From NCBI RefSeq assembly GCF_001956295.1, contig NZ_MRTD01000024.1, positions 1 to 64,000 of the forward strand: a stretch of DNA of 64,000 nucleotides, in the 5' to 3' direction. The position numbers were made by a program, and so were the translations under genes. Numbering within the stretch: position 1 is the first letter of the stretch; each line of letters starts with the position of its first letter. Below the pieces are notes generated by a model. That model worked only from the letters and a program-made list of their open reading frames with translations. It did no database searches and was not told the origin of the DNA. Shown one piece after another: positions 3,610-44,756 of this stretch. Origin of the DNA: Paenibacillus sp. FSL A5-0031 (GTDB lineage: Bacteria > Bacillota > Bacilli > Paenibacillales > Paenibacillaceae).

Positions 3610-4002
3610 CTATTTCTTTTTCTTCACTTTCTTGTTCGCGGCTTTTTCAATATTCTCAGCTACTCTGTATTTTACGATCTCACCAATTAATTCGTAAGGT
3701 ATAGGCTCGTCTAAAGGGAAGCGAATCGACCCTTTTGCCCCTTTATACGGGGATAATTGCTGTTTAAAGGCCTCAATTCCGCTTGGAGCCGGATATAAGC
3801 CGATATGATTTTTGTAAGCTGCAAAATGAACCAAGTTCCCGTGGAGCACGAAGGTCGGCATTTGATAGCTGATTTTCTCTGTCGCTTCTGGTGCAGCCAC
3901 TTTAACCACGCCTCTTATCTTCTCCAAAATATCCTGAATCTCAGGAGAGTAATGGGCGATATACTGATCAATTGTCTCAAATGTGATTTTATTGCCTTCC
4001 AT
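3610..4002 (-). CDS. DUF1801 (YdhG/YjdI-like) protein
   Basis: A 130-residue protein of the DUF1801 family, sometimes called iron chaperone-like because of resemblance to frataxin folds; biochemical support is weak. Diagnostic stretches are YIAHYSPEIQDILEKIR at the N-terminus, EKISYQMPTF in the middle and HIGLYPAPSGIEAF near residue 70. The tail KKVKKKK is lysine-rich. AAGGAG precedes the ATG. It has its own terminator and lies 22 bp downstream of a small membrane protein gene in the same direction. Confidence 0.8.
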   Translation of the reverse strand: MEGNKITFETIDQYIAHYSPEIQDILEKIRGVVKVAAPEATEKISYQMPTFVLHGNLVHFAAYKNHIGLYPAPSGIEAFKQQLSPYKGAKGSIRFPLDEPIPYELIGEIVKYRVAENIEKAANKKVKKKK

Positions 4003-4024
4003 GGCTGCTCCTTTCGGGCCTTCG

Positions 4025-4213
4025 TTATTTGCGGCGCTTCTGGGCCATTCTCGAATAAATGATGAATGCTGCGACTAGCATGCTAATGAAACCAACATTT
4101 TCTGCCGGTCCCTGTTCCATCCCAAATACCATACAAAGATTCGTAATAAGGCTTTTTACAAGCAGTGCTATGACAATCAGCATTAACGGACGAATAAAAT
4201 TATATTTCTTCAT
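4025..4213 (-). CDS. Small membrane protein of unknown function
   Basis: A 62-residue protein beginning MKKYNFIRP with two hydrophobic segments (about residues 8-27 and 43-57) and a basic end MAQKRRK. The internal ATG is chosen because CAGGAG lies 11 bases upstream; a longer frame would start with an unlikely leader. It directly precedes the DUF1801 gene and may be co-transcribed with it. I do not recognise the family with certainty. Confidence 0.6.
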   Translation of the reverse strand: MKKYNFIRPLMLIVIALLVKSLITNLCMVFGMEQGPAENVGFISMLVAAFIIYSRMAQKRRK

Positions 4214-4391
4214 CTTTAGTACCACTCCTGACGACGCCCATAGTAGATCAGCTCCCGCTAAAACTAGCAATTGAAATCGCTTTAATAGGAGCAATCCCGG
4301 CAAGTATACCAGTTTCCAGCCTGATCGTCCAACCTTTCCGCATAGCTCTAGCTTCTACAAAGCCAGCGCCTGACCATGCCTTGCTAGATGT

Positions 4392-39003: not shown

Positions 39004-39246
39004 CTATCCCTCCAGCTCAAAACGGAAATCTTCTACAACCGTGTTCGCAAACAGCTTCTCGCACATAGCTTTAATGCGTACTTCCGCTTCTGCGCGGTCA
39101 GTCGTATCAAGCTCAAGCTCCAAATATTTGCCGATGCGTACTTTTTCGACTTCAGAGAAACCAAGTGTGTGAAGCGCTCCTTGTACAGCGGTTCCTTGTG
39201 GATCCAAAACGTTTTGCTTGATAGTGACGTAGACGGTTGCCTTCAT
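39004..39246 (-). CDS. purS: FGAM synthase, PurS subunit
   Basis: An 80-residue PurS that bridges PurQ and PurL. It shows [21 protein letters not shown] and [15 protein letters not shown] precedes the ATG. It is separated from purC by 1.09 kb of non-coding repeats, although the order purC-purS is kept. Confidence 0.93.
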
Positions 39247-39761
39247 AATAGCCTCCTGAAAATGTGGGTTTTTTCTCGCAGCAGATTTTCGTCAAAATGT
39301 AATTGCCGCTCGGGCGTGGGAGTTATTGCTTACGCCGCTTTCGAAGCCGGGAAATTCTGATTACACGCTTTGCGGTAATTTCCCGGCTTCAAGAAGCGAT
39401 CGCTGTCGCTCTCCAGCAACAACTTCCCACTCTCCGAGCTCACACATTTTGAGATAAAACCTTTGCGAGGGTGGTCGGTGAAGCGTTTGTTTGGCGGCCG
39501 CGCTATCGCTGGCCGCTTGATTCCTGTTTGACTGGCCTGTGCTTATGCTGCCTGTCAGTAATGCATTTGCAGCCCTGCGCTTTCGCGCTCAGGCTTATGG
39601 GGTGCAGCAGCGCTCTCGCTGGCTGCCTGCCTAAGCGGCATGCGCTTCAGCACCCCTATGTCAGCGTCATCGCTCTCGCTCAACGTTGTTAAAATCATTC
39701 CATCCGGCTTTCAGCGGCGGATTTTAATATAACGGGAATTTCTACCGTTAAATCAAGCCTA
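39247..39761. repeat. GC-rich repeat-bearing spacer between purS and the 113-bp array
   Basis: No gene is supported. It carries a 14-bp perfect stem, GAAGCCGGGAAATT (39343-39356) with AATTTCCCGGCTTC (39377-39390) around 20 bases. A CGCTNTCGCT-like word recurs (for example CGCTATCGCTGG, CGCTCTCGCTGG, ATCGCTCTCGCT). The pattern resembles the dispersed intergenic repeats common in Paenibacillus. Confidence 0.55.
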
Positions 39762-40313
39762 AAAGCTAATTTGCTGCGATTAGCGGGAATTTTGGGCGTT
39801 AATTTTACTAATTTCGACGTCCTAGCTCGATTTTGCAGCATTTAACGCCTGTTTTTCCCGTTAATCCAACTATTAAAGCTAATTTGCTGCGATTAGCGGG
39901 AATTTTGGGCGTTAATTTTACTAATTTCGATGTCCTAGCTCGATTTTTCAGCATTTAACGCCTGTTGTTCCCGTTAATCCAACTATTAAAGCTAATTTGC
40001 TGCTATTAGCGGGAACTTTGGGCGTTTTTTGCAGAAACTTCGACGTCCTAGCTCGATTTCGCAACATTTAACGCCTGTTTTTCCCGTTAATCCAACTCTT
40101 AAAGCTAATTTGCTGCGATTAGCAGGAATTTCAGGCGTTATTTGCATCAACTTCGGCGTCCTAGCTCGATTTTGCAGCATTTAACGCCTGTTGTTCCCGT
40201 TAATCCAACTCTTAATGCTAATTTGCTGCGATTAGCAGGGAAATCAGGCGTTATTTGCATCAATTTCGGCGTCCTAGCTCGATTTTGCAGCATTTAACGC
40301 CTGTTTTTCCCGT
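39762..40313. repeat. Five tandem 113-bp units inside the pur operon
   Basis: Units begin AAAGCTAATTTGCTGC at 39762, 39875, 39988, 40101 and 40214 (the last reads AATGCTAAT), each exactly 113 bp apart. Each contains TTAGCGGGAA...GGGCGTTA and, in inverted form, TTTAACGCCTG...TTCCCGTT, so each can fold on itself. The second and third units share features, and the fourth and fifth share others (AGCAGG, TTTGCATCAA), suggesting stepwise duplication. 113 is not divisible by 3 and no shared frame stays open. Confidence 0.93.
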
Positions 40314-40336
40314 TCCGCACTCAGCTAGCAAAGCTC

Positions 40337-41233
40337 CTACAGCTCTACGCCAGTAAGACGGCGGTAGATGTCACGGTAGCGGGACGTGGTTTCAGCTACT
40401 ACGGAATCCGGCAGCGGTGCTGGCTTACTGTCGCGATCCCAATCTGAGCCTAGCAAGTACGTGCGTACCGGCTCTTTGTCCATGCTGTCGATCTCGATAT
40501 CCAGCGCATAATTACCTTCCGCCCAGAAGCGGGAGGAGTCAGGCGTGAAGATTTCGTCGATCAAGATCACTTTGCCGTCGATGAGTCCAAACTCGAATTT
40601 GCAATCGGCAAGGATGATGCCATGCTCTGCGCAATAGCCATGAGCGTATTCATACAGCTTGATACTGCGGTCACGCAGCTCCTCGGCAAGCTCAGCACCG
40701 ACCATTTCAGCCATTTTCTCAAATGGGATGTCCTCGTCGTGGCCAACGTCGTTTTTCGCTGCCGGCGTAAAGATTGGAGCAGGAAAACGTTCGTTTTTGC
40801 GGAGGCCCGCTGGAAGCTCTATACCGTTAATCGCTGACGTTTGCTGATACTGTCTCCAGCCGCCGCCAGTGATATAGCCGCGAACCACACATTCGATATC
40901 GATGCGCTCCGCTTTGCGGGTAACCATAATCCGGTTTTTGAGCAGCTCCGGCTCGGTGACGAGACCGCCAAGCTTCTCCACATCGGTATGAACGACGTGA
41001 TTCACTTGGATGTCAGCGGTTTGCTCGAACCAGTAAGCGGACAACCGGTTCAGCACATTGCCCTTGTCCGGCACTGCTGGGTCAAGCACGTAGTCGAATG
41101 CGGAAATGCGGTCGGTTACGACGATGAGGAAATGCTCGCCCAGATCGTACAGCTCACGAACCTTTCCTTTGTAAATCAGCGGAGCTTTAATATAATCGAC
41201 AGCTGTCGATAGAGCTTGCGATGGTGCAGTCAT
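40337..41233 (-). CDS. purC: SAICAR synthetase
   Basis: A 298-residue phosphoribosylaminoimidazole-succinocarboxamide synthase (purine step 7 in this route), of the longer ~300-residue type. It shows YKGKVRELYDLGE, VTDRISAFDYVL, VRGYITGGGWRQYQ and LIDEIFTPDSSRFW. GGGGAGG precedes the ATG. It lies 15 bp after purB ends and 1.09 kb before purS. Confidence 0.95.
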   Translation of the reverse strand: MTAPSQALSTAVDYIKAPLIYKGKVRELYDLGEHFLIVVTDRISAFDYVLDPAVPDKGNVLNRLSAYWFEQTADIQVNHVVHTDVEKLGGLVTEPELLKNRIMVTRKAERIDIECVVRGYITGGGWRQYQQTSAINGIELPAGLRKNERFPAPIFTPAAKNDVGHDEDIPFEKMAEMVGAELAEELRDRSIKLYEYAHGYCAEHGIILADCKFEFGLIDGKVILIDEIFTPDSSRFWAEGNYALDIEIDSMDKEPVRTYLLGSDWDRDSKPAPLPDSVVAETTSRYRDIYRRLTGVEL

Positions 41234-44325: not shown

Positions 44326-44545
44326 GGAGCGGAAGCACAGACCGGTATTCATGCGAATCCATGGCCAATCAAGCTTCACTTCAATGAGGACGAGACAAAT
44401 CGTGCTGCAGAGCCGAAAAGACAACAGAAGGCTGCCCCGTAAAGGAGGCAACCAGTGTCCAACTAACAAGGCACTTTGCAGACTTGCATTTGCTTTATGG
44501 CGATCCGAAACCTTACGATTCGATATCGCTTATCGTCTCATTTTG

Positions 44546-44610
44546 CTCGTAGTCCGAAAATTAAGGTTCTCGGGTAGAAACATTCAGGCCTGATCCCGAA
44601 TATATACGAG
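44546..44610 (-). ncRNA. Guanine-class purine riboswitch aptamer
   Basis: On the minus strand: P1 CTCGTA/TACGAG; J1/2 TATAT; P2 TTCGGG/CCTGAA with loop ATCAGG; J2/3 TGTTTCTACC; P3 CCGAGAA/TTTTCGG with loop containing CCTTAA; J3/1 GGACTACGAG. The specificity base before TACGAG is C (GAC TAC), which pairs with guanine or hypoxanthine; adenine aptamers carry U. All core elements of the purine fold are present. Upstream of purE in the standard operon position, it should turn transcription off when guanine is abundant. Confidence 0.92.
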
Positions 44611-44756
44611 TAAACTTTAAATGAAATAGTAGGAAGATATTTGTATTCATCCATAAATTTCAGTTCTAATTTTTCACAAAACTTTTCTGTTCACTCTAAC
44701 CTTTAGAACAAACAGCAATACGTTCCAGCGGACAATTCCGCCTCAAACCTATTCTA

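Follow-up and report, generated by a model that had tools for sequence, protein, structure and literature searches.

In the genome of Paenibacillus sp. FSL A5-0031, an otherwise tight pur operon is interrupted between purC (40337–41233, minus strand) and purS, the downstream gene (39004–39246, minus strand), by a gap of 1090 bp that contains a tandem repeat. This raises the question of what the repeat is, how it came to lie there and whether it matters for purS. The window analyzed here is a 64-kb stretch (64,000 nucleotides), in which Tandem Repeats Finder reports a single tandem array, at 39762–40314 (period 113 bp, 4.9 copies, 91% matches and 0% indels, for a score of 852). Its units, read on the minus strand, occupy 39762–39874, 39875–39987, 39988–40100, 40101–40213 and, closest to purC, the partial unit 40214–40314. 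The first-pass annotation, made from the letters alone, had described head-to-tail 113-bp units, each with an inverted repeat, that split the operon, and all of this stands. Its grouping of units 2–3 versus 4–5 holds for the latter pair (94% identity); the other close pair is 1–2 (97%), while unit 3 shares 85–89% identity with each other unit. Because the gap measures 1090 bp, the array fills only the half next to purC, and the remainder carries other conserved hairpins. The stretch 39480–39730 (minus strand), which lies between array and purS leader (described below), has a number of short hairpins whose loops are of the GCGNNAGC type and which are common to relatives. A coding repeat was considered for the 62-aa open reading frame inside the array (39992–40180) and discarded, since 113 bp is not a multiple of three.

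The 113-bp period is composite. Eleven inverted-repeat blocks of about 21 bp follow one another across the array, starting at 39730, 39781, 39843, 39894, 39956, 40007, 40069, 40120, 40182, 40233 and 40295, with steps that alternate between 51 and 62 bp and add up to the period. The series is opened by an extra inverted-repeat block (39730–39750), 51 bp ahead of the block of the first unit. Then follow in alternation blocks of type P2 (39781–39801; also 39894, 40007, 40120 and 40233) and of type P1 (39843–39863; also 39956, 40069, 40182 and 40295), 62 bp from P2 to P1 and 51 bp from P1 to P2. The two types are nearly reverse complements of each other, which in sequence is the BIME arrangement. 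The blocks are partly imperfect (e.g., 40007 and 40295) and are weak palindromes, most of which did not pass automated palindrome scans. Each of the five units folds as a long hairpin; as transcript they reach −31.8 to −41.6 kcal/mol, with z from −2.9 to −5.8 against dinucleotide shuffles, and in a second fold survey the 113-bp unit of the window gave z −4.0 on one strand and −5.9 on the other. Array units of other species do not all fold strongly, their RNA folds ranging in z from −5.7 to +1.6. A known RNA family was rejected as the identity of the array, which has no Rfam covariance-model match at either cut-off used: with Rfam 15 at the gathering cut-off, the window yields only a purine riboswitch (RF00167, 69.1 bits; 44530–44629, minus strand) upstream of the pur operon, and at E ≤ 1 only three microRNA families, far below their own cut-offs.

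At BLAST level, the unit itself is confined to this locus. In the own genome (G000), BLAST with unit 1 returned the five array units, and the other 13 among the matches listed were 15–22 bp long with E ≥ 0.03. Across the genus, 8 of 51 genomes, including the own one, have a BLAST match to the units and 43 have none; in the seven other genomes the matches fall inside the same purC–purS gap, and the core motif of the unit is absent from the gap in 45 of the 51. There are five units here, one in the same-species genome G033 and two in FJAT-28004 (G029), which bears out the recent expansion proposed in the first-pass annotation. The gap lengths of the own genome and G033 differ by 445 bp, and four units are 452 bp. 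Two arrays at other loci also differ between these strains when both flanks are matched: the array of locus L123 is shorter in the own genome by 1119 bp, equal to ten 112-bp units, and that of L127 is shorter in G033 by 585 bp, about 4.7 units and not a whole number. In the sense of tandem units whose copy number varies between close strains, the array is a minisatellite or VNTR. At L123, a stretch of about 200 bp (4000–4225) has some 20 further matches in the own genome at 72–80% identity.

What seems to recur in the genus is the spacing. The purC–purS gap, extracted from all 51 genus genomes, ranges from 37 to 1376 bp, and several gaps contain arrays whose sequences are different ones but whose period is 51 bp. 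After addition of 80 named loci (79 with purS downstream), the 93 distinct gaps comprise 20 arrays with at least 2.4 copies and a period of at least 30 bp. The period is 51 or 52 bp in 9 of the 15 arrays of period 30–80, the others being 30, 35, 36, 38, 40 and 64 bp; against a uniform null over periods 30–80, which is crude, the binomial p is 3e-8, and with related units merged (7 of 13) it is 3e-6 under the same crude null. Five gap arrays have longer periods (102, 113, 205, 237 and 327 bp), of which 102, 113, 205 (4 × 51 + 1) and 327 (2 × 164 − 1) are readable as multiples or sums, the 164 having been read by eye as 51 + 62 + 51, while the 237-bp period, in G004, is a repeated purS leader. 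The pairwise identity of the nine 51/52-bp units is mostly 0.37–0.49, compared with a mean of 0.41 and a maximum of 0.49 for shuffled sequences. The exceptions are P. pinisoli and G035 (0.86), both of these against the P. pasadenensis unit L288_33 (0.63), and G035 against the P. humicus unit (L278; 0.51). In G035 and P. pasadenensis, one gap each holds two adjacent arrays that are unrelated to each other, one with a period of 51 bp and the other with a period of 51 or 52 bp.

The first-pass annotation had also suggested looking for other 113-bp-type arrays in the genome, and these exist in architecture, with no second BLAST-level copy of the unit. Eighty stretches of 20 kb were sampled from seven genomes (40 from G000, 20 from G033, and four each from G182, G134, G217, G088 and G028), which together with the window amount to 1.66 Mb and contain 24 arrays with a period of at least 35 bp, mostly outside open reading frames. 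Among the 17 intergenic arrays with a period of at least 45 bp (window included), 12 resolve into steps of 51, 61–62, 72–73 and once 30 bp, readings that were partly counted by hand. The fitting arrays have periods of 113 bp (window), 213 bp (L116), 112 bp (L118, L122, L123 and L160), 124 bp (L127 and L182), 123 bp (L130 and L156), 194 bp (L153) and 51 bp (L176). L182 is 62 + 62 with no 51-bp step, and in L153 one 113-bp stretch is assumed to be 51 + 62; in L127 (17650–18050) the automated steps are 51 + 62, and the spacers look unrelated. L162 (49 bp) is borderline, and the misses have periods of 92 (a tRNA duplication), 82, 98 and 77 bp. Seven shorter arrays (35–42 bp) are outside the step class. 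A dispersed family with units of 38–41 bp (L112, 2267–2644; L134, 4223–4371; L128; L158) also lies outside the 51-bp class.

By genome, the twelve fitting arrays comprise six in G000, four in G033, one in G028 and one in G217, with none of the class in G182, G134 and G088 (0.08 Mb sampled each). In a follow-up of 0.8 Mb from eleven other genomes, two of six intergenic arrays with a period of at least 45 bp fit: L186–L205 (20 stretches, six genomes) gave one of three intergenic arrays, and likewise one of three at that period, and L206–L225 (20 stretches, five genomes) gave one of seven, or one of three at that period, the fitting array being from P. luteus (G018) with steps of 51 + 72. In these samples, the class is therefore concentrated in this species, with few arrays in the others. 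Searches with nhmmer group the loci into several families: L118, L122, L123, L147, L150 and L160; L125, L127, L130 and L156; L116, L162 and L164; and the second array of L127, L134, L144 and L153 together with the P. paridis and G046 gaps, a family that also matches the purC unit. One array family has matches at about seven places in the own genome (G000) and in four other genomes of the 51. The 51-bp unit of P. pinisoli has 57 matches in its own genome, 61 in G035 and a few in three more genomes, the matches forming, as grouped by eye, about 15 loci each in P. pinisoli and G035. Similar arrays also lie between convergent genes and once between divergent genes.

Taken together, we consider it probable that these palindrome arrays are REP/BIME-like, that they expand where they lie and keep a conserved 51-bp step, and that the purC array is one of them. 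The 113-bp units would have arisen locally, where they now lie, by expansion of a double palindrome of BIME-like build: two inverted-repeat blocks of about 21–23 bp that face opposite ways, at distances of 62 and 51 bp. The array would belong to a Paenibacillus intergenic class whose block sequences vary by family while the 51-bp step recurs. Copy number changes as units are gained and lost, probably when copies recombine or slip against each other at sequences prone to form hairpins. It seems to be the spacing rather than the sequence that is kept, and the conserved step suggests recognition of hairpins at a fixed distance, by either a bound protein or the array-making process. Uneven density, the weak palindromes of the purC-unit blocks and the absence of the unit from most genus genomes count against this reading. 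Furthermore, an ancestral 51-bp array with drifting sequence could leave a shared period without present constraint. The locus would then be a plain minisatellite, founded by accidental tandem duplication, grown by slippage and still carrying the period of the ancestral array. Copy number does change by units, and the homogenization expected of tandem arrays would preserve the period; we nevertheless hold this explanation to be rather unlikely in view of the two adjacent, unrelated arrays in the same gap of G035 and P. pasadenensis and of the 51-bp steps seen elsewhere in dispersed families. One may also speculate, with little confidence, that a Paenibacillus process copies or keeps hairpins of any sequence at a fixed 51-bp step and so gives rise to rapidly turning-over arrays at many intergenic sites; such a process would also cover larger steps, extended by roughly one or two turns of the helix.

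For the operon, a growing REP/BIME-like array would presumably mean a string of A-loop hairpins in the transcript. The array itself is expected to be tolerated as spacer DNA, influencing mRNA stability or polarity mildly at most. An internal promoter or terminator was considered and rejected: the scan of 39200–40400 found no sigma-70-type promoter (shuffle mean 1.0) and no terminator-like site (shuffle mean 2.0). The gap is only 37–121 bp long in nine of the 51 genomes, and the array is therefore not needed for purS expression genus-wide; its effect on purS is probably mild. Uncoupling of purC from purS, protection of the mRNA and binding of a protein, as put forward in the first-pass annotation, would be hypothetical roles of the array. 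In E. coli, REP hairpins between malE and malF stabilize the upstream mRNA or lower downstream expression. A transcribed hairpin string acting in the same manner on the upstream pur mRNA or on purS would fit the strong folds of the purC units and the position inside an operon behind a purine riboswitch. It would also fit a bias on the purC-to-purS strand, where the longest run of A is longer than that of T in 14 of 14 units, compared with 21 of the 52 array-free gaps that measure 150 bp or more, although this comparison pits short units against whole gaps and an excess of A over T is general in these gaps (46 of the 52). Such an RNA-level role appears unlikely, given that unit number varies from zero to many among relatives and that similar arrays also lie between convergent and, once, divergent genes. 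Strong RNA covariation of the palindrome arms was likewise rejected, as the effects are small: 0.836 versus 0.803 in within-array shuffles for set F1, 0.849 versus 0.817 for F2 (without the L195 palindromes, whose patterns were unmatched), p 0.06 for F4 (without those of L134, for the same reason) and a value below its own shuffle for F3.

A role at the DNA level, with palindromes on one face of the helix that would bind a dimeric or wrapping protein such as gyrase or a nucleoid protein, appears very unlikely. REP/BIME elements are marked by binding of gyrase, IHF or Pol I, and BIME-2 binds gyrase; the steps of 51, 61–62 and 72–73 bp are spaced by about one helical turn, and half-sites are common to both arms yet not strictly complementary. 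Against this, block sequences differ between families, which makes one sequence-specific protein unlikely, and steps or periods of 38, 53 and 82 bp are also present. With the 50–52 class included, the automated steps fall 25 on and 19 off a helical grid whose share is 0.31; without that class, 12 of 31 steps fall on it, compared with an expected fraction of 0.27 (p 0.116). The grid is not significant, and therefore only the 51-bp step is treated as supported.

The second part of the gap, the purS leader (39247–39506, minus strand), is a separate element, a conserved and covarying hairpin that directly precedes the ribosome-binding site of purS. These 260 nt are conserved in 19 aligned genomes of the 51, which were chosen for element sharing or long gaps and of which G037 aligns poorly. 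RNAalifold gives a structure of 50 pairs, 18 of them with changes on both sides, a number that stands out from 500 shuffles (mean 5.8) and from slid partners (1 to 6). In one predicted helix, GCUUC pairs with the Shine-Dalgarno region, where there is no two-sided change. The 116-nt leader core (39315–39430, minus strand) is a dispersed, genus-wide structured repeat: its model R1, built from 21 sequences of which 17 are purS leaders of the genus, has matches in at least 46 of 51 genomes, from one to at least 48 per genome and at least two in the own genome, with at most 72 candidates per genome scored. The Rfam search of the window returned no match at the leader, which we regard as a candidate RNA element of Paenibacillus, either cis-regulatory or dispersed. 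Pairs of cores in opposite orientation occur about 215 bp apart (G036:C7:285351/285564, G028:C1:6140817/6141031, G009:C16:105891/106108 and G017:C4:300050/300267), as if they were the ends of a mobile element of about 330 bp. The leader is itself tandem-repeated in L070, L054, L055 (G004, P. arenilitoris) and L063 (G046), with 3 × 237 bp in G004, and the core model matches twice in the G046 gap. The range of gap lengths, 37 to 1376 bp, also shows that a core biosynthetic operon can accommodate a zone of insertion between purC and purS.

Among known repeat systems, VNTR/MLVA loci share with the purC array the head-to-tail units and the differences in copy number between close strains, whereas internal palindrome pairs and a step common to unrelated units are particular to the arrays described here. 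CRISPR arrays also present short palindromes at regular intervals, but in the purC array the spacers repeat together with the palindromes, whereas CRISPR spacers are unique. The small repeats of Bacilli, such as the ~150-bp element bcr1, are likewise intergenic, structured and dispersed, according to the consulted portion of their description (PMC2267715); by that description alone, they are set apart from hairpins arrayed at a fixed step.

The nearest kind are the REP/BIME elements, such as E. coli BIME-2 and the REP arrays of Xanthomonas. In the sections consulted, these are extragenic, imperfect palindromes of 20–40 bp, clustered in alternating orientation with regular spacing (PMC2817692, PMC3733652). 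Short extragenic palindromes, clustering and alternating orientation are all found here, while the differences are what look, by nhmmer, like several palindrome families in place of the single genome-wide sequence with a GTAG or CGTC tag that marks REP elements, and a 51-bp step common to unrelated families. A RAYT-driven REP family was rejected, since the own genome has no match to the Y1/RAYT transposase (PF01797) at E ≤ 0.001, in a search whose control recovered it from 5 of 14 named genomes, E. coli included; according to the part of PMC3733652 consulted, some REP families lack a dedicated transposase. The literature searched, as far as its accessible portions extend, contains no description of Paenibacillus palindrome arrays with a 51-bp step, and relative to these portions the class would be new. 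Repeats are normally defined by sequence, and unrelated sequences that share a step point instead to a constraint of geometry. If this is true, sequence clustering will miss such a class; and if it is true in complete genomes, these arrays would offer a direct way into the question of how palindrome arrays are made and maintained in bacteria, which for REP elements is still open.
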